Shown: in pieces, positions 37,940-62,050 of the stretch
How positions within the stretch are numbered: the stretch's first letter is position 1
Layout of the letters: every line of letters starts with the position of its first letter
Assembly (NCBI RefSeq): GCF_003968755.1
Contig: NZ_RYDL01000001.1
Coordinates: forward strand, 1 to 64,000
Length of the DNA stretch: 64,000 nt
Reading direction: 5' to 3'
Origin: Flavobacterium sp. RSP15
GTDB taxonomy: Bacteria; Bacteroidota; Bacteroidia; Flavobacteriales; Flavobacteriaceae
Made by a program: the position numbers and the translations under genes
Notes under the pieces: generated by a model
Database searches by the model: none
What the model saw: only the letters and a program-made list of their open reading frames with translations
Told to the model about the DNA's origin: nothing

Positions 37940-40048
37940 TTAGCTAATATAATTCCAGATGTTTTTCTTTTTTGTCATTTCTAAGAAAACAACTCTCAAA
38001 GCGGTATGCTCCGGTTTTTGCATCCCTGCATCTTCTTTCAGAAGTTTTAAAGCATAATTTCTGGCTAAAGCCAAAGTATCTCTGTCTCGAACTAAATCGG
38101 CAATTTGAAGATTCAGTACGCCGCTTTGTTGTGTTCCCATCAAATCACCCGGACCACGAAGCTTCAAGTCGACTTCCGCAATTTCGAAACCATCGTTTGT
38201 TTGCACCATCGTTTCCATTCGGGTTTTACTGTCAGAACTCAATTTGTGACTTGTCATCAGGATGCAATAACTTTGCTCCGCACCACGACCCACGCGACCT
38301 CGAAGCTGATGGAGTTGCGACAATCCAAAACGTTCCGCACTTTCAATAATCATCACGCTGGCATTAGGAACATTCACGCCAACTTCAATTACAGTTGTAG
38401 CAACCATAATATTAGTTTTCCCTTCTGAAAAGCGTTTCATTTCTGCATCCTTTTCCGCTGGTTTCATCTTTCCGTGCAAAATTGAAATCGAATACTGTGG
38501 CAATGGGAAATCTCTGGAAACACTTTCGTAACCGTCCATTAAATCCTTGAAATCCATTTTCTCCGATTCCTGGATGAGCGGATACACTATATAGATTTGG
38601 CGACCCAAAGCGATTTCGTCCCGAAGGAATTTCCAAACCTTCAAACGGTTGCTGTCAAAACGATGTACGGTCTGAATCGGTTTTCGTCCCGGAGGCAGTT
38701 CATCAATTACTGAAATGTCTAAATCGCCATACAAACTCATCGCCAAAGTCCGGGGAATAGGCGTGGCGGTCATTACCAGAACGTGTGGCGGAATCACATT
38801 TTTCTTCCATAATTTAGAGCGTTGTTCTACGCCAAAACGATGTTGCTCATCAATTACAGCCAGTCCTAAATTCTTGAATTTTACTTTATCTTCTAGTAAA
38901 GCATGCGTTCCGATGAGAATATGTAACGTTGCGTTTTCCAGTTCTTCATGGATAATTCGGCGTTGAGCTATTTTGGTAGAACCTGTTAGGATTCGGATAT
39001 TTATATTTAAAGTTTCGGCCAATTCGGATAAACCCATAAAATGCTGATTGGCGAGGATTTCTGTTGGTGCCATCAAGCAGGCTTGGAAGCCATTATCAAG
39101 CGCCAAAAGCATGCTCATAAAAGCCACAATTGTTTTTCCGGAACCTACATCGCCTTGCAGCAATCGGTTCATTTGGGCGTTGCTTCCCATATCGGTTCGG
39201 ATTTCTTTTATCACTCTTTTTTGAGCATTTGTCAGTTGAAAAGGCAAATGATGCTGATAAAAATCATTGAAGTTTTCGCCTACAGTTGTAAACGGATGTC
39301 CTTTTATTTTATGTTTTCGGATGAGATTCTTCGTGATTAATTGCAATTGGATAAAGAACAATTCTTCGAATATTAATCGGAATTTGGCTTTTGCTAAAAC
39401 ATCAGCACTTTTTGGAAAATGAATGTTGAATAAAGCCGCTTTTTTAGGAATCAGCTTCAATTCGTTAATCAAATAATCCGGTAAAGTTTCCGTGAATAAC
39501 GCTTGTGTTTCCAGAAACAATTGCTGCATCAGTTTATTAATCACCCGGTTTGAAATTCCGCGATTAGTCAAAGTTTCTGTCGAAGGATACACGGGTTGCA
39601 TCGCTGAACGCAGACTTTGTTCATGCTCTGTCATCAATTCAATTTCGGGATGCGCCATGTTGAACACATTTCCAAAAGAGGTGCATTTTCCAAAAATTAC
39701 ACACATTTCATTGAGCTTTAAACTCTCCCGAATCCATTTGTGACCTTGAAACCAAACGAGTTCCATTTGTCCTGTATCATCTACAAAAGTCGCTACCAAT
39801 CGCTTTTGGTTTTTGCCAAATTCTACAGTTTTGATGTTGATAATTTTACCGATAATCTGAACTTCGGCACTATTATTTTGCAGTTCGTTAATCTTGTAAT
39901 AGCGCGTTCTGTCTATGTATCTATTTGGAAAAAAATTAACCAAATCCACGTACTTATAAATTCCCAATTCCTTACGAAGCAATTCGCCCCGATTGGGACC
40001 AACGCCTTTCAAGTATTCGATGGGAGTGAGTAGGAGGTTTTGTTGCAT
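37940..40048 (-). CDS. recG: ATP-dependent DNA helicase RecG
   Basis: A 702-residue SF2 helicase that remodels stalled replication forks and branched DNA. An N-terminal wedge/OB domain (about 1-190) precedes the motor with Walker A GDVGSGKT, DEQHRFG as Walker B, MTATPIPRTLAM as motif III and the QLRGRVGRG motif VI. Length and order are standard. Runs opposite to the DUF1697 gene. Confidence 0.97.
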   Translation of the reverse strand: MQQNLLLTPIEYLKGVGPNRGELLRKELGIYKYVDLVNFFPNRYIDRTRYYKINELQNNSAEVQIIGKIINIKTVEFGKNQKRLVATFVDDTGQMELVWFQGHKWIRESLKLNEMCVIFGKCTSFGNVFNMAHPEIELMTEHEQSLRSAMQPVYPSTETLTNRGISNRVINKLMQQLFLETQALFTETLPDYLINELKLIPKKAALFNIHFPKSADVLAKAKFRLIFEELFFIQLQLITKNLIRKHKIKGHPFTTVGENFNDFYQHHLPFQLTNAQKRVIKEIRTDMGSNAQMNRLLQGDVGSGKTIVAFMSMLLALDNGFQACLMAPTEILANQHFMGLSELAETLNINIRILTGSTKIAQRRIIHEELENATLHILIGTHALLEDKVKFKNLGLAVIDEQHRFGVEQRSKLWKKNVIPPHVLVMTATPIPRTLAMSLYGDLDISVIDELPPGRKPIQTVHRFDSNRLKVWKFLRDEIALGRQIYIVYPLIQESEKMDFKDLMDGYESVSRDFPLPQYSISILHGKMKPAEKDAEMKRFSEGKTNIMVATTVIEVGVNVPNASVMIIESAERFGLSQLHQLRGRVGRGAEQSYCILMTSHKLSSDSKTRMETMVQTNDGFEIAEVDLKLRGPGDLMGTQQSGVLNLQIADLVRDRDTLALARNYALKLLKEDAGMQKPEHTALRVVFLEMTKKKNIWNYIS

Positions 40049-49959: not shown

Positions 49960-50971
49960 AATTTAATTTTTTGGCAAAATAGTTGCTGATTTACTACGTG
50001 TTTTTATTTTTACCAAGAACATATAAATCTATGGATTGTATTATGTAAGCATGTTATTCTTGATTATCATTAAGTGGTTGTCAATTGGATTTCAGATAAC
50101 ATTTTTGGTATTAACTTCAAAAATTCATTCTTTAAAAATCGGACAAATTTATAACTAGAAATCATTAAATTACTGATAAAAAAGTATTTAATAATTTTTA
50201 TTTATGACCTTGTCGAGACGATTTTAGAACTTTTTTTAGATGATTTAAAGATATTAACCTACTGAGAAAGTTTCTAAAAAACTCATAGGTGTTTTTACTA
50301 TTTTGCATGGGCTTTAATCAAAATTCGATTCACTAGTATACTAGGTAACAAATTATTTGTCCGATTACTTTTTTGTAAAAAAAACCGGTCTTCGTTAGCT
50401 TTTTCGCAAAGAAAAAAAATTTTTTTTTAATTAAAAATGGCAGTCATGAGGTTCGAATTCTACTTTTTAATAAAATAAAAGAATTAGAAAATTGTTTTTA
50501 TTTTCAGAAGAATTTAGGACAAAATTAGTCTCTCATTTTCATGATTTTTAAATTTTTTTTGTGGTCGATAGGATTCTTTTGAATAATTATAAATTGGCAT
50601 TACGCGGATAAAAACTGCAAAAATTAATTTGAAATTGCTCCTTCTAAAGGTTTTTGGCTTCATAGAACAACTGGTTTTATGAATGTAAACTTCACGGACG
50701 ATACTCAGTTTCGGTATTTTTTAATTCGTTAAGTATTACGAAAGTTATTGTTTATAATGTTTAATTTTTGAAACTATTAATTATTAATTATGTGTTTCTT
50801 ATGTATCAAGGATGACTGTTCAACAGTGCAGTTACAGTAACAGTTACAGTTATTTTTATGTTGATTTAGACTAAATGGAAATGAATTCCTGACAATTGCA
50901 ATGTAATTTTTTCATTTAAAAAAAAGTAAAAACATTTGTCAGGATTGGAAGATTTTCCTGTCTACAACTTT
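49960..50971. other. 1.0-kb gene-free AT-rich region
   Basis: Stops in all frames; no family recognisable. It contains long A and T tracts, an isolated T-loop-like string (50450-50460) without the rest of a tRNA, and a short ACAGTT-type repeat with internal symmetry (50829-50852). It is by far the longest empty stretch in the window and lies just before a damaged gene. Confidence 0.6.
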
Positions 50972-51670
50972 ATGAAATTCATAAAGGATCATTCTTCAAC
51001 AACTGCGATACTGCTTTTTGCTCAAAGTGAAAAAGTTCAAAGTATTTCTAAATCTATTGCTTGTAAAAAAAAGCAAAACCAATTGTTGTGGAAAAAGATG
51101 AATGAAAACGTTTTGAAAACCATCAAAAAAACAAATCTTCCTTATTCTGTAGTTGATGAAAGTATCCAAGTAGGTAACACTTTTGGCTAGAAAATTACGG
51201 ATGCAATAAATAAAGTTTTTGCACAAGGTTATGATAAAGTCATTGTTATTGGAAATGATTGCATTGAATTGCAAGCGGATCATCTGCTTCTGGCTAATAC
51301 AAATTTGCAAATTAATGATTCAGTTCTTGGAGCGGATTTTAATGGTGGTGCCTATTTGATAGCTGTTTCAAAATCAAGTTTTCTTGCTAAACAATTTGCC
51401 GCTATTTCTTGGCAAACACCTTGCGTTTTTAAAGAATTAAAAGCGCTATTTAGCAAAAAAAAAATGAGTTTACTTCCAGTTTTGAATGACTGTAAAAATG
51501 CTTTTGATTTTAAAAAAGCAATTTGTAAATTATCCTTTTCAGATGGATTTAAAAATTTAATTCTTTCCTTACTTCAAAAGGGAATAAATGTAAATTATTA
51601 TAAAAAATCTCAGGTTCATTACGAATATAAAAGTTTAAATTTAAATAAGGGATCTCCTTTTTCGTTATAA
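50972..51670 (+). pseudogene. DUF2064 (TIGR04282-type) glycosyltransferase with in-frame amber codon
   Basis: A 232-codon frame interrupted only by TAG at 51188-51190, inside NTFG-stop-KITDAINKVF, where the family has a Glu (one base change from GAG). Before the stop the N-terminal strand TAILLFAQS is intact; after it VIVIGNDCIELQADHLL (the GND metal-binding region) and GADFNGGAYLIAVSKSSF match. In the databases this family is named 'arsenosugar biosynthesis glycosyltransferase', rSAM-associated. The conserved TDGG appears as FNGG. The frame is open from a TTG at 50936, but the ATG at 50972 fits the family start. It sits 43 bp before the receptor gene. Confidence 0.75.
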
Positions 51671-51713
51671 ATTACAGCTCAAATTGCATTTATTTATAAC
51701 TAATTTTTCTCCG

Positions 51714-54689
51714 ATGAAACAATTTTTCATTTGGGCCTTACTTTGCTTTACGACATTTGTATCTGCTCAAGAAGACCTAACGGTTTCTGTTATTGATTTT
51801 GAAAATCAAAGACCAATTTCTAATATTACCATTAAATTATCCAATAGTACTCGGAATAGCACCTTGTTGCAAACTACTAATCTTCAAGGGAAAGCAATTT
51901 TTAGAAACATTCCTGCTTTAGATGGTTATCAAGTTTCATTTGAAGAAACGGCAGACTATGTTGCTGAAAGATCCGATATTATTAGTATTCGTTCCAATCA
52001 AAATCCAAATGTTACTTTGATTTTAAAGAGAACAAATACAGAAGAGTTGGACGAAGTTGTTATTGCTAGAAATTCAACATCAAAAATTAACCGTCGCGAT
52101 GCCGAGGTTTCTTTTGAATTGAAAGCTGCCGAAATTCAAGAAATTCCGTTCGAAGGGCGAGATATTACTAGAGTTCTGTATCGATTACCAAACGTATCGC
52201 AAGCCACAGGATTTTTTGCAGAAGCGCCTAATGTGAGCATTAATGGGGCGAATCCTTTGTTTACGTCTTATCTTATTGATGGAATGGATAACAATGAGCG
52301 TTTTTTAGGGGGACAAAAGTTTAATATACCATCTGGTTTTGTAAAGGACATTACGGTTTTGACTAGTAATTTTTCGGCAGAATACGGATTAACAGGAAGT
52401 GGTATTATAGACATAACACCACGGTCAGGATCTAATGAAATGACAGGAGAAACCTTTTTTATCACTAGACCTGGTCCATCGATAGATGGAAAATCTTCAT
52501 TTGCTCAACGTGATTTGTTAGGTAATCAAGTTAAAAATGGCTTTGCTCGTTACCAAGCGGGTGGAGGCGTAGGAGGTGCTTTTGTTAAAGATAAAACGTT
52601 TTATTATTTCAATTTTGAACATACAACCGATGTGAAAGATAATTTATTAAAAGTACCCGAATTGGGAGTTGCAGAAACCGTGAGGGGAAACAATACATTT
52701 AATTATTTCTCATCAAAAATTGATCAATTATGGAATAAAAATTTTAGATCTTCGGTCCGTGCGAATATAGGAATCGTTGAAGTTGAGCGTCAGGGTGGTG
52801 GTTTAGATGGAGGAGCTACATTTGCTTCTGCGGGAAATAGTCAGCAAAGAAACAGTATTTTATTATCACTGAAAAACTCGTATAACTTTGGTAAAATAAG
52901 TGGTGAGACCAATATTCAATATAATCGTTTTAGATGGAATTATGCTGATCCTGTCCATGTAAACTCCTCACAAGTTATTGTTTTAGGTATTAATGACGAA
53001 ACTTTAGCCATTTTAGGTCATCCGGGCTACGTTTTTGATGCTTTGGAAAACACGATTCAAATCCAACAGAAATTCAAATATTATACAGAGAACCATACTT
53101 TCAAATCGGGATTGAATTATATACGAGGAAATCACGAGTTATTTGGAGGCGGAAACCCTAACGGCAATTATACCGTCAAACTGAATCAATCCCAAATTGA
53201 CGGAATTAGAAATAGTGGTGTAGGAAGTAGCCTGGATGTTAGTGATATTCCACTGGATGCTCAGGTAATTAATTATAATGTAGAGTTGCGTCCCGCTTCT
53301 TTTGGAACACATCAAGATATTTATTCTGTTTATTTGGAAGATTTATGGTCGGTTAGTGATAAACTGAATATTACATTGGGCTTGCGTTACGATTATGATA
53401 ATTTATCAAAAGGTGGAGGTAACAAAGGCGATTACAATAATTTAGCGCCTCGATTTAATTTTAATTATAAACTAACAAATAACAGCAGTATTCGTGGAGG
53501 CTATGGAATTGCGTATGACAAAATAAATTATGGTCTATATAGCGATGCTTTACAACAAAATACGACATCAGCAGATTATAAAACTCAGCTGCAAGAGTTT
53601 ATTCGATTAGGAGTTTTGCCAGCTAACACTAATCTGGAAGCGGTGACTTATAACGGAAATATAGCGGCTAATTTATCAAATGTATCCTATTTACAAGGTC
53701 CTACCGGAGATCAATTACAAAGTGAGCGGGAAGGTGCTTTTTCGAATGAAAGACGGATTTTAAATCCTAATGGCTACAACAATCCGTACTCACATCAGTT
53801 TGCGTTGGGGTACCAACTTCAGGCTGACGGAAATCAATTGTTTTTTGTAGATTTGGTTCATAATCGAGGTGAAAATTTATTCCGTTTGAGAAACCTGAAT
53901 GCCGCAGCCGAATATCCGATTGATCCTAGTAATGTCATCATCAGAACGCAAGCAGAAGCCGATGCTTCCCGACCAATTCCCATTGTAAACGGAACAGCAA
54001 CCATTAACGGTCAAACGGTAAGCGGTGTAGCGCGAAATGTTGTAATAAGTGAAACCGAAGGAAAATCTAGATATTATGCTGTAAGCGTAAATTATCAAAA
54101 AACAAGGGGGATTGACACGTATTCCTATCGATTAAACTATACCTTGTCTGCCTTAAAAAATGATACCGAAGATATTAATTTTAGAGCCATGGATGGGAAT
54201 AATTACGCAAGGGAATGGGGATATTCGATTAATGACAGAACGCACAATATCAACGGAATTTATAGTTTTTATCCCTTTAGCGGAACCACGATTACTGTAG
54301 CCGGATTATTGCAAAGCGGTCAGCCCATAAATCGGATTCCACTTGGTTTTGGAACTACTGATTTAAATGGTGACGGTTCTGGTTTTAGTGATGCGTATCA
54401 AGGCAATAGTGATCGTTTTCCCGGTGAAAGCAGAAACAGCGACCGCTTGCCGTGGAGCACTACTTTTGATCTGGGTTTACAGCATCAATTTAAAATGGCA
54501 AAAAATAATAAAATCGAAGTAAGAGCTGATATTTTTAATGTTTTCAATGCTGAAAATTTAAGCGGATACAGTAACAATGCTACACAGAGTAATCAAATTC
54601 AAGGCGGTTCAACTGCCAGTGGCTTGTTTACACAACGCAACGCGTCGCCTCCAAGACAGTTTCAGTTTGGAGTACGGTATTTATTTTAA
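51714..54689 (+). CDS. TonB-dependent receptor with carboxypeptidase-regulatory-like domain
   Basis: A 991-residue outer-membrane active transporter. Signal peptide cleaved after FVSAQ; an N-terminal carboxypeptidase-regulatory-like domain (about 20-105), a plug domain (about 125-235, with VSINGANPLFTSYLIDGMDN), then a 22-strand barrel ending in FQFGVRYLF. ATG 51714 is chosen over the open frame from 51684 because it begins the signal peptide. No SusD gene follows, so it is not a classical polysaccharide-utilisation pair. Ligand unknown; neighbours suggest a nucleoside-like compound. Confidence 0.92.
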   Translation: MKQFFIWALLCFTTFVSAQEDLTVSVIDFENQRPISNITIKLSNSTRNSTLLQTTNLQGKAIFRNIPALDGYQVSFEETADYVAERSDIISIRSNQNPNVTLILKRTNTEELDEVVIARNSTSKINRRDAEVSFELKAAEIQEIPFEGRDITRVLYRLPNVSQATGFFAEAPNVSINGANPLFTSYLIDGMDNNERFLGGQKFNIPSGFVKDITVLTSNFSAEYGLTGSGIIDITPRSGSNEMTGETFFITRPGPSIDGKSSFAQRDLLGNQVKNGFARYQAGGGVGGAFVKDKTFYYFNFEHTTDVKDNLLKVPELGVAETVRGNNTFNYFSSKIDQLWNKNFRSSVRANIGIVEVERQGGGLDGGATFASAGNSQQRNSILLSLKNSYNFGKISGETNIQYNRFRWNYADPVHVNSSQVIVLGINDETLAILGHPGYVFDALENTIQIQQKFKYYTENHTFKSGLNYIRGNHELFGGGNPNGNYTVKLNQSQIDGIRNSGVGSSLDVSDIPLDAQVINYNVELRPASFGTHQDIYSVYLEDLWSVSDKLNITLGLRYDYDNLSKGGGNKGDYNNLAPRFNFNYKLTNNSSIRGGYGIAYDKINYGLYSDALQQNTTSADYKTQLQEFIRLGVLPANTNLEAVTYNGNIAANLSNVSYLQGPTGDQLQSEREGAFSNERRILNPNGYNNPYSHQFALGYQLQADGNQLFFVDLVHNRGENLFRLRNLNAAAEYPIDPSNVIIRTQAEADASRPIPIVNGTATINGQTVSGVARNVVISETEGKSRYYAVSVNYQKTRGIDTYSYRLNYTLSALKNDTEDINFRAMDGNNYAREWGYSINDRTHNINGIYSFYPFSGTTITVAGLLQSGQPINRIPLGFGTTDLNGDGSGFSDAYQGNSDRFPGESRNSDRLPWSTTFDLGLQHQFKMAKNNKIEVRADIFNVFNAENLSGYSNNATQSNQIQGGSTASGLFTQRNASPPRQFQFGVRYLF

Positions 54690-54757
54690 AAGAATAATAG
54701 ATAAATATACCTCAGTCGTTTTTACAAACTACCGAGGTTTTTAAAACAACAATAATA

Positions 54758-55747
54758 ATGTTTATACTACGGGCAAATGAGCCAAAAGAATTAACCGATT
54801 ATTTACAAAAACAACAGTGGCTTGGACTTAATGAGACAATTGTTTCGTTAACCAAACCAGGTGAAGGCAATATGAATTATCTTTTGCGAGTGGATACAGG
54901 CGCGCGAACTTTTATAATAAAACAATCTCGCGCTTATGTTGAAAAATACCCGAAGGTAAGTGCTCCATCAGATCGGGTAATCACCGAAAGTTTGTTTTAT
55001 CAGAAAGTTGCTCCGGTACAAACGGTTCAAAATTATATGCCAAACCTCATCGGGCTGGACCGTCAAAATAATGTGATGATATTAGAAGATTTAGGGAAAT
55101 CCAATGATTTCAACTTTTTATATGATTTGGAACAGCAATTGAAAACAGGCGATCTTATTTCATTAATAGATTATTTGAATGGTTTACATTCGTCTTTTTA
55201 CAAAGACATTATTGATGATGAATTGACAAATTTAGATTTACGGATGCTCAATCATGAACATGTTTTTAGATATCCTTTTATGGAGGATAATGGATTTGAC
55301 TTAAATTTGGTTCAAAAAGGGCTGCAGGAATTAGCATTACCGTATAAAAAAGACCTTCAGCTAAAACAAAAAGTTGAAGTACTTGGATCTTTATATTTGT
55401 CTCGTGGAAACTACCTTTTGCATGGAGATTATTATCCTGGAAGTTGGCTTAAAACCCAAAAAGGGATCAAAATTATTGATCCGGAATTTTGCTTTTATGG
55501 TTCAAGAGAATTTGATTTGGGCGTTTTATTGGCACATTTATATTTAACACAGCAAGAGTTACATCTAGTATCGGTTGTCATAAATGAATATGTGGCTTAT
55601 CCTGAATTGAATTTAGAAATTTTAAATGGATTCACGGGTGTTGAAATTATGCGACGACTAATTGGATTGGCACAATTGCCTTTACAAATAGATTTGAAAA
55701 CAAAAGCAAAATTATTACAATTTGCCAATACTTTAATTACAAAATAA
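54758..55747 (+). CDS. phosphotransferase, methylthioribose kinase-like
   Basis: A 329-residue kinase of the aminoglycoside phosphotransferase/choline kinase fold. Marks are GEGNMNYLLRV (about 32-42), FIIKQSRAYVEKYP with the ATP-binding Lys, the catalytic HGDYYPGSWL (Asp) and IDPEFCFYGSREFDLG (metal-binding DPE). The KQ-xxYV and HGD-xxxGS features are those of methylthioribose kinase (MtnK) rather than antibiotic kinases. It is predicted cytosolic. It sits 68 bp behind the receptor and 6 bp before the nucleoside hydrolase gene. Assignment to MtnK is likely but not certain. Confidence 0.8.
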   Translation: MFILRANEPKELTDYLQKQQWLGLNETIVSLTKPGEGNMNYLLRVDTGARTFIIKQSRAYVEKYPKVSAPSDRVITESLFYQKVAPVQTVQNYMPNLIGLDRQNNVMILEDLGKSNDFNFLYDLEQQLKTGDLISLIDYLNGLHSSFYKDIIDDELTNLDLRMLNHEHVFRYPFMEDNGFDLNLVQKGLQELALPYKKDLQLKQKVEVLGSLYLSRGNYLLHGDYYPGSWLKTQKGIKIIDPEFCFYGSREFDLGVLLAHLYLTQQELHLVSVVINEYVAYPELNLEILNGFTGVEIMRRLIGLAQLPLQIDLKTKAKLLQFANTLITK

Positions 55748-55753
55748 ACAAAA

Positions 55754-56716
55754 ATGAAATTAAAACTAGTTCTTCTAGCCTTGCTTTTTGCACATCAGAT
55801 TCACGCACAAACGAAAGTTTGGTTTGATACCGATATCATGATTGGAATGCCAGATAAGGCAGCTCGCGAAGTAGATGATGGCATTACTTTAATAATGGCA
55901 TTAAAGCAACCACAAATTCAGATTGTGGGGATTAGCAACATAACCTACATAGATTATAGTTACGAAATTATTCATAAAATAGTAAAATGGCACCACAAAG
56001 GTGCAGCTATTCCTGTGTACAAAGGATCTCCGGAAGCGGCTGATTTAGGAACTGAAAATGATGCGACGAAAGCGTTGTACCAAGCTTTAAAGAAAGAAAA
56101 ACTTACTATTCTGGCTCTTGGTCCAATGACAAATATTGCAACATTAATACAGAATCATCCAGATATTATACCCCAGATTGAGAAAATATCAATTTGTGCA
56201 GCACGTACACCAGATATGATTTTTAATCCTGGGAATGGAAAGCTCAATGTGTTTGATTACAATTATGAGTTAGACCCTAAATCTATGGATATACTATTAA
56301 ACTCGACCATTCCTTTGATTTTTGCAGGATATGAACCCAGTTCTTATACCCACATTGGCACTATTGATTTAGCAAGTTTAGATCGAACAAATGAAGCTGA
56401 TAAATGGTTGTTTGACATTGTTCAACCGTGGATGGCATTAAATGAAGAGTATTTTGGTGTTCATGGTTTTATTCCTTTTGATTGTTCGACTTTGGGAGTA
56501 ATCACGCATCCGGAATATTTTAGTTATTATGAAAATATTCCGATAAAAGTAACATACAAAAAAAATGATGCTTTAGAAATTCAACCAGATAAACCTTTTA
56601 AAAATTTCTTGGAAGTGTCTTATAAATTCAAATCCAAAAAGAAAGTCAAATATGCTCGAAAGGCTTTGCATGGCTTTGAGGAAAAAATTTTAGAAACATT
56701 ACGTAGTAAGAAATGA
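55754..56716 (+). CDS. exported inosine/uridine-preferring nucleoside hydrolase family protein
   Basis: A 320-residue enzyme that cleaves N-glycosidic bonds of nucleosides. The signal peptide (LLALLFAHQIHAQ) predicts export, unlike the cytosolic family members of E. coli. The calcium-binding motif is DTDIMIGMPDKAAREVDDG (about 25-43), altered from the usual DTDPGxDDA form, with ALGPMTNIATLI further on and the FDY-NYELDP segment in place of the usual EFN. The changes keep the Asp residues but suggest altered specificity. Six bases after the kinase gene; likely co-transcribed. Confidence 0.85.
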   Translation: MKLKLVLLALLFAHQIHAQTKVWFDTDIMIGMPDKAAREVDDGITLIMALKQPQIQIVGISNITYIDYSYEIIHKIVKWHHKGAAIPVYKGSPEAADLGTENDATKALYQALKKEKLTILALGPMTNIATLIQNHPDIIPQIEKISICAARTPDMIFNPGNGKLNVFDYNYELDPKSMDILLNSTIPLIFAGYEPSSYTHIGTIDLASLDRTNEADKWLFDIVQPWMALNEEYFGVHGFIPFDCSTLGVITHPEYFSYYENIPIKVTYKKNDALEIQPDKPFKNFLEVSYKFKSKKKVKYARKALHGFEEKILETLRSKK

Positions 56717-58400: not shown

Positions 58401-58805
58401 ATGCAAAAACAAAAATCCATACTATTGCTTTTTTTGATGGGAATAATTCTATTTCCATGGCAATTAATCTGTTTAGCACATCCATTAGGTGAACCGGATC
58501 ATTCGAGAGATCCAGATCATAAAGAAATTTCAAATTGCGAATTGAGAAGACAATATACGGGTAAACAATCCGTTATTTGGCCACCAATGGACTGCAAACA
58601 AGAGGTTTTAAAATCAGCTAAGTTTCAACAACCACAATTTGACAGTCTGATTTTGGCCGTTAGTCCTTTTGTAGTAATCACTTCTAATTTTGAATTTATA
58701 TTCAATTCAAAAGTAATAAAGCCTCATTTATTTCTTGAAGAACCCAATTGCCGTTCGGCAAGCATTATTTCAAACCATCCGCATCGCGGACCTCCTATAG
58801 TTTAA
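58401..58805 (+). CDS. small exported protein, His/Asp-rich
   Basis: A 134-residue protein with a signal peptide (LLLFLMGIILFPWQL, cleaved near CLAHP). Just after it lies HPLGEPDHSRDPDHKE, rich in His, Asp and Glu, and the C terminus has NHPHRGPP; both could bind metal ions. Three later cysteines (NCELRR, DCKQEV, NCRSAS) are present. No family recognised. It precedes the RND pump gene by 149 bp and may belong to the same unit. Reality of the gene is supported by the signal peptide and position only. Confidence 0.5.
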   Translation: MQKQKSILLLFLMGIILFPWQLICLAHPLGEPDHSRDPDHKEISNCELRRQYTGKQSVIWPPMDCKQEVLKSAKFQQPQFDSLILAVSPFVVITSNFEFIFNSKVIKPHLFLEEPNCRSASIISNHPHRGPPIV

Positions 58806-58954: not shown

Positions 58955-61900
58955 ATGATTAAAATAGCTTTCAAAAACCCCTATTTGGTACTGGTCTTTT
59001 CCATTATCGTAGCGGTAATTGCCGGGGTACTTATCCCTCGAATGCCTGTGGACATACTGCCGCAATTCAAAAAATCGGCGATGCAAATTATTACCCTTTA
59101 TCCGGGAATGCCAGCCGAAGTAGTCGAAAAAGACATTACCAGCCGAATGGAGCGCTGGACCGGTCAGTCGCCCGGAATTGAAAAACAACTCTCTAAAAGT
59201 ATTATGGGCGTTAGTGTTGTTACCAATTTTTATGGAGAAGATGTCGACCCCGCCGAAGCTATGGCAAACACTTCTTCTTATGCGGTAAGCGATATGTATT
59301 ATCAGCCACCGGGAACAATGCCTCCAATGATTCAGCCTTTCGATCCTACGGCTTCAAAACCATTGATGTTACTCACCGTAAGCAGTGATGTAAAAAGCGG
59401 AAAAGAATTGTATGATGTGGCCTATTTGAACTTACGCCAGATGTTAAGCGGCGTAGAAGGTATCGTTGCTCCTGCGGCTTACGGTGGTTCCCTGCGTATG
59501 ATTTATGTGTATGTTGATCCTTTAAAAATGGAAGCTTTGGGAATTTCTCAAACAGAAGTTTCGGATGCTATTCAAAAAAACACAACCATGATTCCTTCTG
59601 GAATTGCCCAAATTGGAACCATAAGTTATGGTGTAGATGCCAAAGGACTTATTGTGGATGTAAAAGATTTTGACGACATCGTAATTACGCATAAAAACGG
59701 AAAACCCATCTTTATAAAGGATATTGGACAAACCAAAGATGCCAGCGCAATTCAAACCAATATTGCCCGAGTGGACGGGAAACAGCAAGTGTATTTGCCT
59801 ATTTTTAAACGTCCGGGAGCCAATACGATTGCTGCCGTAGAGGCCGTAAAAGCAGCTTTGCCAGATTTGAAAGAACGAATGCCCGAGGATGTCAAATTGA
59901 ACGTAATTTTTGATCAATCTTCGTATGTAAAAAATGCAATTTCTGGTTTAGAAGATGCGGGTTTGGGCGGTTTGATTTTAGTAGTAATCATTTTGGTCTT
60001 GTTTTTAGGAAACTTTAAATCTGCATTGATTGTCGCGATCAGTTTACCACTTTCAGTTTTGTTTGCCTTTATTGTGCTGTCTATTTCGGGACAAGCTATT
60101 AACAGCATCACCTTGGGAGGATTGGCTTTAGTATTGGGACTTTTGGTGGATAATTCCATTGTAGTATTAGAAAATATCGACAAGCATTTAAAAATGGGTA
60201 AAAGTTCTAGTGTAGCAGCAAAGGATGCCGCACTAGAAGTCGCAAATCCGGTATTGGCTTCGACTTTAGTAATTATAGTCGTCTTCTTTCCGGTATTATT
60301 TTTAACAGGAATTACAAAGTTTCTTTTTTCGCCTTTAGCCATAACCGTTGCCGGAGCTATGATAGGTTCTTATCTTTTCGCTCTGACGTTGATTCCCTTG
60401 ATGGCAGCTTTTTTCTATAGAAATCAATTGCCAAAATCAGATGAAAAACCAAAGAAAAACTTTTTAGGAAAATTTCAACGCTATATTGATCGGTTGGGAG
60501 AAAAATACCAAAACAGTTTACCCACAGTTCTGAAATTTAGGATGCCAATTTTAGCGATAACAATAGTGCTTTTTATTCTTTCAATTTTTATACTGAAAAA
60601 TACCGGATACGAATTATTTCCGCAATCGGATGTGGGTCAAATGGAAATTATGGTACGTATGGAATCTGGTACAACCCTGCAAAATACCAATGCCACGATT
60701 GCCAAAATGGAGCAGGTTATTCGAAAGGAAACGGCTGATGATTTGGAACAAATTATTGGAAATGTAGGCGTTTTTTATGATTTGCCGGCGGCTTACACGC
60801 CAAATTCTGGAACTCAAGATGCTTTTATAGGATTACAGCTCAAAGAAAGTCATCAAACCAGTACGTTTGAATATGCTTCTCGTTTGCGAAAATTGTTTCA
60901 CCAAAAATTCCCGGGAGTAGAAGTCAGTTTTAATACCGGAGGCATGATTACCGCCGCTTTGAACGAAGGAAAACCAGCTCCAATAGACATTCAGGTCAAA
61001 GGGAATGACTTAAAAGTTTTACGCCAATTGGCCGAAAACATTAGGGATACTATCGCATCACTTTCTGCCACCAGAGACGTTCGGGTGTTGCAGCGATTGG
61101 ATCAGCCCGCCAAAAATATTAATATTGATCGAATAAAAGCAGCATCATTGGGCGTTGAACCCGTTGATGCAATTAAAAATATGGTTTCGAGCTTAAATTC
61201 ATCTGTTACTTTCAACAAATCTTTTTGGATCGATGAACGTAACGGAAACCACTATTATGTTGGTGTTACCTATCCGGAGAGTGAAATAAACAATCAATTT
61301 GTGTTAGAAAACGTAGGTGTTGGAAGCAGTTTACAAGACAAAACCATTCCGTTTCGCAATTTTGCTAAAATTACCGATGGCTCAAACCCTGTGGAAATAA
61401 ACCATCACAAGCTTACCCGTGAATTTAATGTCTACGCCAATGTAGAAGGCAAAGATGTAGGAAGTGTTTCTGATGAAATTCAAGAAATAATCAGCAATAT
61501 GAATGTTCCTTTAGGTTATGAAGTCAATTTTCAGGGAGAAGTTGCTATTATTAAAGAGTCGTTTAGCAGTTTGGGAATGGGATTAGCACTGGCAGTTATA
61601 CTGGCTTTTTTAATCATTACGCCACTTTTTAGATCGTTCAGAAAACCGTTAATCATCATTCTTAGCTTTCCTTTTGGGATTATAGGAGTGGCTATTTTAA
61701 TGTGGATTACCGGAACTTATATGAGCATTCAAGCCATTATGGGAATTATTATGATGGTGGGAATTTCGGTTTCTTACGGAAACATTTTGGTCGATCGAAT
61801 CAATGCTTTATTAATAGAATGTAAATCAAAACAAGAAGCCATTATCGAAGGATCTTCAGACCGTTTTAGACCTGTATTAATGACCGCTTCGACCACTATT

Positions 61901-62050
61901 TTAGGATTACTGCCAACAGCTTTAGCAACCAACCCAGGTTCAGAAGCGAATGTTCCACTAGCAATTGTAGTCATTGGCGGAACATTTATGGCTATGCTCA
62001 TCACGCTTTACATTATTCCTATCTTTTATTCCCTTATCGCAAAAAATTAA
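58955..62050 (+). CDS. RND efflux pump, inner-membrane subunit
   Basis: A 1031-residue proton-driven transporter with 12 membrane helices. N terminus KIAFKNPYLVLVFSIIVAVI, porter motif PVDILPQF, and in TM4 Asp399-Asn400 (GLLVDNSIVVLENI), where the first operon's pump has two Asp. This single-Asp form differs from drug-exporting AcrB. Substrate unknown. Gene order pump-adaptor-TolC is the reverse of that in the minus-strand operon. Spacing to the adaptor gene is 5 bp. Confidence 0.94.
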   Translation: MIKIAFKNPYLVLVFSIIVAVIAGVLIPRMPVDILPQFKKSAMQIITLYPGMPAEVVEKDITSRMERWTGQSPGIEKQLSKSIMGVSVVTNFYGEDVDPAEAMANTSSYAVSDMYYQPPGTMPPMIQPFDPTASKPLMLLTVSSDVKSGKELYDVAYLNLRQMLSGVEGIVAPAAYGGSLRMIYVYVDPLKMEALGISQTEVSDAIQKNTTMIPSGIAQIGTISYGVDAKGLIVDVKDFDDIVITHKNGKPIFIKDIGQTKDASAIQTNIARVDGKQQVYLPIFKRPGANTIAAVEAVKAALPDLKERMPEDVKLNVIFDQSSYVKNAISGLEDAGLGGLILVVIILVLFLGNFKSALIVAISLPLSVLFAFIVLSISGQAINSITLGGLALVLGLLVDNSIVVLENIDKHLKMGKSSSVAAKDAALEVANPVLASTLVIIVVFFPVLFLTGITKFLFSPLAITVAGAMIGSYLFALTLIPLMAAFFYRNQLPKSDEKPKKNFLGKFQRYIDRLGEKYQNSLPTVLKFRMPILAITIVLFILSIFILKNTGYELFPQSDVGQMEIMVRMESGTTLQNTNATIAKMEQVIRKETADDLEQIIGNVGVFYDLPAAYTPNSGTQDAFIGLQLKESHQTSTFEYASRLRKLFHQKFPGVEVSFNTGGMITAALNEGKPAPIDIQVKGNDLKVLRQLAENIRDTIASLSATRDVRVLQRLDQPAKNINIDRIKAASLGVEPVDAIKNMVSSLNSSVTFNKSFWIDERNGNHYYVGVTYPESEINNQFVLENVGVGSSLQDKTIPFRNFAKITDGSNPVEINHHKLTREFNVYANVEGKDVGSVSDEIQEIISNMNVPLGYEVNFQGEVAIIKESFSSLGMGLALAVILAFLIITPLFRSFRKPLIIILSFPFGIIGVAILMWITGTYMSIQAIMGIIMMVGISVSYGNILVDRINALLIECKSKQEAIIEGSSDRFRPVLMTASTTILGLLPTALATNPGSEANVPLAIVVIGGTFMAMLITLYIIPIFYSLIAKN

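Follow-up and report, generated by a model that had tools for sequence, protein, structure and literature searches.

Four consecutive genes on the plus strand of the Flavobacterium sp. RSP15 genome raise the question of what compound they take up and process, and of whether the gene at their head is a lost enzyme or something else. They lie in a 64,000-nucleotide stretch of contig NZ_RYDL01000001.1 (hereafter the window), part of a 3.39-Mb draft genome that is 99.99% complete, and encode a DUF2064 protein, a TonB-dependent receptor, a kinase and a nucleoside hydrolase. All four frames of the preliminary description, including the one amber codon in the first of them, are present. The computations covered gene content, synteny, distribution across genomes, predicted folds, a C-terminal tail motif and an excess of pairing, and the locus is real and conserved. 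As for its role, we give about an even chance to a leader-controlled riboside salvage operon that feeds a DUF2064 (arsenosugar-type) pathway beside synthesis by ArsS.

Conservation of the gene order was assessed in the best 80 of 429 kinase relatives, which were collected by scanning genomes with an alignment of 15 kinase sequences and lean to close relatives. The contiguous order DUF2064, receptor, kinase, hydrolase is present in 27 of the 80 loci, distributed over Flavobacterium, Mariniflexile, Lacihabitans, Leadbetterella and Emticicia (at least five genera) and metagenome-assembled genomes. Co-location therefore exceeds chance, and the recurrent synteny that the preliminary description had proposed to look for is found. 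The kinase adjoins the hydrolase on one strand in 48 loci, and the fetched flanks hold DUF2064 genes in 41, DUF547 genes in 16, TIGR04283-type genes in 10, and PNP and ArsM genes in none. The gene maps were built with our own open reading frame (ORF) caller and profiles from our own clusters rather than taken from annotation, and the identities of the ArsS, ArsM, PNP, DUF547, TIGR04283, TIGR04169 and PF03747 genes were checked against Pfam/NCBIfam on representatives only. In six Dyadobacter loci a DUF547 gene stands ahead of the kinase on the same strand, with DUF2064, ArsS, CMD and TIGR04283 genes running divergently alongside. One of the six (L073) scores 437.2 for ArsS (cut-off 300), 191.2 for CMD on TIGR04169 (120) and 218.0 on TIGR04283 (182), the other five being assigned by clustering. 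Among 15 kinase loci of relatives in the same family (L027–L041), canonical DUF2064 and PNP genes occur near the kinase in 10, five of which have AsSugarArsM too; in the closest, L027 (57–58% identity), only the hydrolase and a DUF547 gene are next to the kinase. The arsenosugar context supposed earlier is visible to the extent that the kinase gene stands beside ArsS or AsSugarArsM genes in some relatives. A very constant neighbour, adjoining the kinase in 11 of these 15 loci, is a PF03747-type gene for an ADP-ribosylglycohydrolase-like lipoprotein (for example, L034:10547–11917), which could cut O-ribosides.

The head gene (50972–51670, plus strand) had been described as dead. The TAG at 51188–51190 is the sole stop in its frame, there is no frameshift, and the remaining frame is open. 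The stop comes straight after Phe-Gly, at a position where relatives carry Glu, Asp or Gln. When read through, the product matches PF09837 at 59.8 bits (gathering 25.8), and 22 of the 23 columns with at least 90% conservation in 77 relatives are intact. The lesion therefore reflects either a nonsense mutation of recent date or an error in sequencing, and "dead" is too strong a word. An intact gene with a mis-sequenced codon is suggested by the same kept columns and the want of any frameshift; its probability comes close to an even chance while falling short of it.

The kinase gene (54758–55747, plus strand) encodes a protein that reaches 119.7 bits (E 1.6e-34) on the TIGR01767 MTRK profile, and two relatives reach 122.0 and 133.8. 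Its Pfam matches are barely above gathering, at 23.3 for APH (23.2) and 22.5 for Fructosamin_kin (22.4). The predicted model (pLDDT 81.5) has as its top structural match the plant methylthioribose kinase 2pyw, with a Z of 29.9 and a root-mean-square deviation of 2.7 Å over 319 residues; the eight best entries are all methylthioribose kinases (the others at Z 26.4–28.9), and PsiK follows at 25.6. HGD224, D241-P-E243 and R299-R300 are invariant in 15 of 15 kinase sequences, and an alignment to 2olc agrees with them. We take HGD and DPE to be the catalytic residues and the twin arginine to be the substrate residues of MtnK. The window kinase is like MtnK (TIGR01767; 2olc, 2pul, 2pyw) in fold, in the HGD and DPE motifs and in the twin arginine; however, it has 329 residues against 397, it scores below the profile cut-off of 275, and MtnA is missing from 37 of the 38 kinase genomes, the window's among them. 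By sequence and predicted fold it is a divergent relative of the methylthioribose kinases, nearer to them than to the other listed sugar and antibiotic kinases, and the MtnK-like label given earlier is borne out. It is annotated here as a predicted (5-modified) ribose 1-kinase.

The last gene (55754–56716, plus strand) encodes a hydrolase of the IUNH family, which scores 95.5 bits on PF01156 (gathering 34.2) and is the only PF01156 hydrolase in a profile search of the whole genome. Its N-terminus is signal-like by eye, and it is presumed to be exported. The calcium-binding Asp cluster (D25, D27, D41, D42 and D243) is invariant in 16 of 16 hydrolases, and Asn170 is kept. In CfNH, E166/N168 is presumably the Glu/Asn pair that binds the 5'-OH; at this site the window type has Asp168/Asn170, and Glu occurs in the homologues of L030, L034, L036, L039 and L041. 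Operons with an ABC importer, which occur in four genomes (L028/L105, L181, L182 and L183, L105 evidently being the genome of L028), have a hydrolase without a hydrophobic N-terminus, whereas a simple hydrophobicity threshold assigns one to 55 of the 59 other scored hydrolase genes. This agrees with a hydrolase that acts on whichever side of the inner membrane receives the substrate. In L183 the binding protein of the importer scores 364.1 bits on NF008633 (cut-off 203), and ABC importers with an NF008633-type binding protein (profile-tested in L183 only) are seen near B-type DUF2064/SusC or kinase genes in L181, L182, L183, L105 and L158. We take this binding protein to be YnjB-like; together with rhodanese and AhpD-like genes, the arrangement presumably resembles the E. 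coli ynj operon.

Whole-genome profile searches found no ArsM or ArsS above cut-off in the window, as had been stated before, and both elsewhere in the genome, which has one ArsS above cut-off and one AsSugarArsM. Of the genes that the preliminary description had suggested seeking there, ArsS and ArsM are thus found and MtnA is missing. Beside the window copy there are two canonical DUF2064 genes and two TIGR04283 genes. Another contig (C29, locus L025) carries, side by side, genes for ArsS, ArsM, canonical DUF2064, PNP, DUF547, an AhpD-like CMD protein and TIGR04283. The second canonical DUF2064 gene (L026:9419–10036) lies near rhodanese, DUF547 and TIGR04283 genes, with no ArsS or ArsM beside it within a 20-kb stretch.

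What the kinase goes with was sought in two samples, whose statistics ignore kinship. In the family sample (149 genomes, evenly drawn, the window's included), the kinase is present in 16, ArsS in 111 and canonical TIGR04282 in 118 genomes, and all 111 ArsS genomes carry TIGR04282. Among those lacking ArsS, TIGR04282 is present in 7 of 7 kinase carriers against 0 of 31 others (p 7.9e-8). In the class sample (395 genomes, six with only a weaker TIGR04282 match being dropped), the kinase is present in 23, ArsS in 66 and TIGR04282 above cut-off in 92; where ArsS is lacking, TIGR04282 occurs in 14 of 17 kinase carriers against 12 of 312 others (p 3.9e-15). A direct association of kinase and ArsS was not found in either sample (p 0.12 and 0.25). 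A tie to ArsS is therefore not upheld; the association is only with canonical DUF2064, so that the nucleotidyltransferase, and not the arsenic enzymes in themselves, is what the kinase accompanies. Anomeric 1-phosphates are the products of both MtnK-type kinases and PNP. Since these belong to the substrate class of the transferase, the simplest reading is that of two entries to one pathway.

The gene order is consistent with the uptake, base removal and activation proposed earlier, and the substrate and chemistry that we infer are as follows. The TonB-dependent receptor (51714–54689, plus strand; Plug, TonB_dep_Rec barrel and OMP_b-brl_4 domains, each above Pfam gathering) would import a riboside or nucleoside, and the exported hydrolase would free its sugar. 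The MtnK-like kinase would then phosphorylate the anomeric hydroxyl to give a (5-modified) ribose-1-phosphate, a product of the same kind as that which PNP would form from the ArsS nucleoside, and the expected substrate of the canonical DUF2064/CofC-like nucleotidyltransferase, whose gene lies in another part of the genome. This kinase may therefore be a second entry, alongside ArsS, to the DUF2064 pathway, with a sugar of the dimethylarsinoyl-ribose type as the most plausible compound.

Ordinary ribonucleoside and ribose scavenging, in which the hydrolase frees plain ribose from common nucleosides and the kinase turns it into ribose-1-phosphate that enters central metabolism, would need the same receptor, exported hydrolase and kinase. 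In Bacteroides, the ribose-utilisation system consists of an outer-membrane receptor (SusC/D), a nucleoside hydrolase, a PfkB-type ribokinase and a regulator. The window block resembles it in receptor, hydrolase and sugar kinase. Scavenging also fits the retained Asp cluster and Asn170 of the hydrolase, the relatives that have kinase and hydrolase with no DUF2064 or ArsS genes nearby or with an ABC importer, and the absence of AsSugarArsM from 30 of the 38 kinase genomes. However, the kinase is like 5-methylthioribose kinases and not PfkB ribokinases, it is tied to DUF2064, and plain scavenging leaves unexplained both the strong link to canonical DUF2064 and a leader that is common to ArsS clusters. 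We therefore consider this explanation rather unlikely.

The putative leader is the head gene. Two kinds of DUF2064 protein can be told apart: canonical ones match TIGR04282 end to end, while the other kind (subfamily B) matches mainly its second half, is without K[TS]RL and carries a tail. The window gene is of the B kind; read through, it scores 74.8 bits on TIGR04282, below the cut-off of 134, and covers only model positions 45–183 of 189. The absence of K[TS]RL in B is partly definitional, because the split began by setting apart proteins without K[TS]RL in their N-terminal 60 residues; the tail motif played no part in it. This motif, [RK][GA][SP]P, stands in the last 14 residues of 81 of 83 B proteins (all distinct proteins from all fetched loci, including the 133-residue piece that follows the stop in the window copy). 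The two without it, L185 and L186, are both at contig starts and probably cut. In ORFs of at least 70 residues, counted for the window over positions 40001–64000 and with some loci overlapping, the motif is found in 0 of 39 canonical DUF2064 proteins and in 2 of the 2444 ORFs outside subfamily B, a total that includes those 39. Its variants are 52 KGSP, 18 RGPP, 8 RAPP, 2 RGSP and 1 KAPP (the strict form R[AG]PP numbering 26); the window has KGSP, encoded at 51647–51658, with the stop 3 residues further on. Since the motif is spelled with 64 different codon sets and its final Pro is invariant within an otherwise variable tail, selection works on the peptide.

The position of the B genes also points to regulation. 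The next gene on the same strand encodes SusC or another TonB-dependent receptor in 66 of 83 cases, the window included; otherwise it is the TIGR04169-type CMD gene of an ArsS pair (10), an importer binding protein (3), something else (2) or a contig edge (2). Among the 49 B genes from genomes with G handles, ArsS lies within 12 kb in 31 and the kinase in 3, and one cluster (L138) holds DUF547, CMD, ArsS, rhodanese, DUF2064, PNP, ArsM, B-type DUF2064 and a TonB-dependent receptor together. In L135 (2030–4173), L145 and L146, the series ArsS, B-type DUF2064 and SusCD is followed by a sodium/solute-symporter-like protein and a calcineurin-like phosphoesterase (profile-tested in L135 only), which suggests import even in ArsS clusters.

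Pairing between the end of the leader and the start of the receptor gene was compared with that of control gene pairs from the same loci. For the final 21 nucleotides of the leader, pairing with the region from the gap to the receptor start has a mean z of -0.92 (n 60) against -0.01 (n 367) in controls (p 1.4e-6 for the difference), and 17% of leaders against 5% of controls fall below -2. In the window, a predicted hairpin (51664–51700, plus strand) with a 9-bp helix (51664–51672 with 51692–51700) spans the leader stop codon, 13 nucleotides ahead of the receptor ATG, with z -2.18 for that site; in L149 and L146 the helix takes in the SusC start codon. Fold z-scores of the leader-receptor region give a clear signal for SusC loci (mean -1.89, n 31) and a weak one for loci with other TonB-dependent receptors (-0.54, n 32). 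No hairpin conserved in sequence was found by eye over the unaligned listing of the gaps. Because many loci lack the pairing and the sequences share ancestry, it supports a switch without proving it.

As a subfamily without K[TS]RL and with an arrest-like tail directly upstream of a receptor, B is likelier to be a regulatory leader than a lost enzyme, and the head gene is probably a ribosome-arrest leader; the earlier proposal that it may once have been a transferase of the same route is revised accordingly. For stalling and ligand we infer the following. The head gene would be an upstream ORF derived from a nucleotidyltransferase, in which the folded domain would detect a metabolite of the pathway during its own synthesis. 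The KGSP/RGPP/RAPP tail would stall the ribosome, which, halted at the motif, would mask the 5' arm of the helix, so that the receptor start region, otherwise paired with the last leader codons, would be freed. In the window strain the amber codon, if real, would end translation short of the tail.

B could instead be a working enzyme or subunit, its C-terminal motif being a binding tag or a dimer contact. The predicted fold agrees with this: an intact relative (L045, modelled in place of the window copy; pLDDT 86.7) is nearest to 3cgx (Z 22.0, 191 residues aligned, 2.3 Å), and then to nucleotidyl- and guanylyltransferases (Z 16.0–17.9). From this model, B retains a CofC-like nucleotidyltransferase fold, and B sequences keep the conserved Asp96 and Gly residues. 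However, K[TS]RL is lost, and the motif is confined to the tail (0 of 83 in the protein body, with 2–10 residues after it), beyond the aligned region; the end of the tail has low confidence in the L045 model. The gene also stands directly ahead of receptor genes and shows the excess of codon-to-start pairing. An enzymatic role for B is therefore unlikely.

Several observations weigh against a leader-controlled salvage operon feeding the DUF2064 pathway. The window's own block is without any arsenic-acting gene, AsSugarArsM is present in only 8 and TIGR04283 in only 21 of the 38 kinase genomes, and the "arsenosugar" names of TIGR04282 and TIGR04283 are database annotation rather than the outcome of assays. 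The phyletic signal is uneven: one genus, with 8 kinase genomes that have neither AsSugarArsM nor TIGR04283, gives 7 of the 14 positives of the class sample, in which 12 ArsS-lacking genomes have canonical DUF2064 without the kinase and the five other genomes of the window's genus lack the kinase. With ArsS itself the kinase shows no association in either sample, and the family sample shows a negative trend. Of the 49 B genes counted above, 15 show no ArsS and no kinase within the stretch that was fetched, and the TonB-dependent receptor of L138 is remote from that of the window (26% identity over 341 residues). For the leader, the pairing excess is modest, confined to a subset of related sequences and absent in many loci. 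The window and 52 of 83 B proteins carry KGSP, a variant that is not known to stall, and neither KGSP nor RGSP appears in the main text of the arrest-peptide paper PMC12992588. According to the accessible text of this paper, a signal sequence is present in "almost all" TonB-class leaders, and B proteins have none; no leader peptide was seen by eye in the aligned B N-termini. A bolder version of the proposal is that a nucleotidyltransferase has been recast as a metabolite-sensing arrest leader over both ArsS synthesis and uptake genes, and that the window operon salvages arsenosugars or arseno-nucleosides (through receptor, exported hydrolase and 5-arsenoribose 1-kinase) and can replace ArsS as the source of activated sugar; we consider it doubtful.

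Salvage of methylthioadenosine or of the by-product 5'-deoxyadenosine via methylthioribose-1-phosphate, in favour of which are the nearest kinase family (MtnK) and the formation of 5'-deoxyadenosine by radical SAM enzymes, is very unlikely, as the kinase falls under the MtnK cut-off, the receptor and exported enzymes indicate an outside substrate, and MtnA is missing in 37 of 38 kinase genomes, the window's included, on which ground methionine salvage was rejected.

The proposed leader has a tested counterpart in CruR (DUF2946), the leader of bfrG in Bordetella pertussis. According to the accessible text of PMC9426467, the nascent CruR protein senses a ligand and its arrest governs the downstream genes; like B, it is an upstream ORF with a C-terminal RAPP(-like) motif, followed by a TonB-dependent transporter. 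However, CruR senses copper and carries a CXXC motif (PMC9426467), while the proposed B sensor is a degenerate sugar-nucleotidyltransferase domain with no signal sequence and most often a KGSP motif. C-terminal RAPP/RGPP motifs of upstream ORFs are an established arrest signature, wide in Gram-negatives and, as in B, also ahead of TonB-related receptor genes (PMC12992588); the accessible text of the same paper makes no mention that we found of a cytosolic leader of the DUF2064 type. RASP is reported among SecM-related motifs, and NSP-stop and NAP-stop leaders occur in Bacteroidota (PMC10987492, accessible part). The arsenosugar biosynthesis cluster (ArsM, ArsS, TIGR04282, TIGR04283 and TIGR04169, with DUF547 and PNP) has the B-type leader in common with the window block, and in some relatives the kinase lies in or beside its genes; unlike that cluster, the window block has no arsenic enzymes, and the kinase occurs independently of ArsS.

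Two further regions of the window were noted. Between a Sua5/YrdC-type gene and the leader gene lies a 1-kb stretch (49960–50971) with no convincing ORF; a search for a gene remnant there, with the ORFs of the fetched loci as queries, gave only one weak minus-strand match of 33 residues (E 1.2e-4). Downstream, an ORF of 134 residues (58401–58805) ends in HPHRGPPIV 149 nucleotides ahead of an RND-family efflux permease gene (58955–62050). It is the only ORF other than DUF2064 with the motif in the counted portion of the window, it has no NCBIfam match, and it is a second candidate for an arrest leader.

To our knowledge, no genes have been assigned to arsenosugar uptake or recycling in bacteria, and among the matches listed in open-licence PubMed Central no paper treats DUF2064 as a leader or describes arsenosugar salvage genes. 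Arsenosugars are a major organic arsenic pool of algae. The pattern of "kinase or ArsS" renders the salvage hypothesis directly testable. If the leader reading is true, a cytosolic protein derived from an enzyme, with an arrest tail and placed ahead of TonB receptor genes, would add a new type to the known nascent-chain sensors, and one subfamily of DUF2064, resembling proteins now named glycosyltransferases, would be regulatory.
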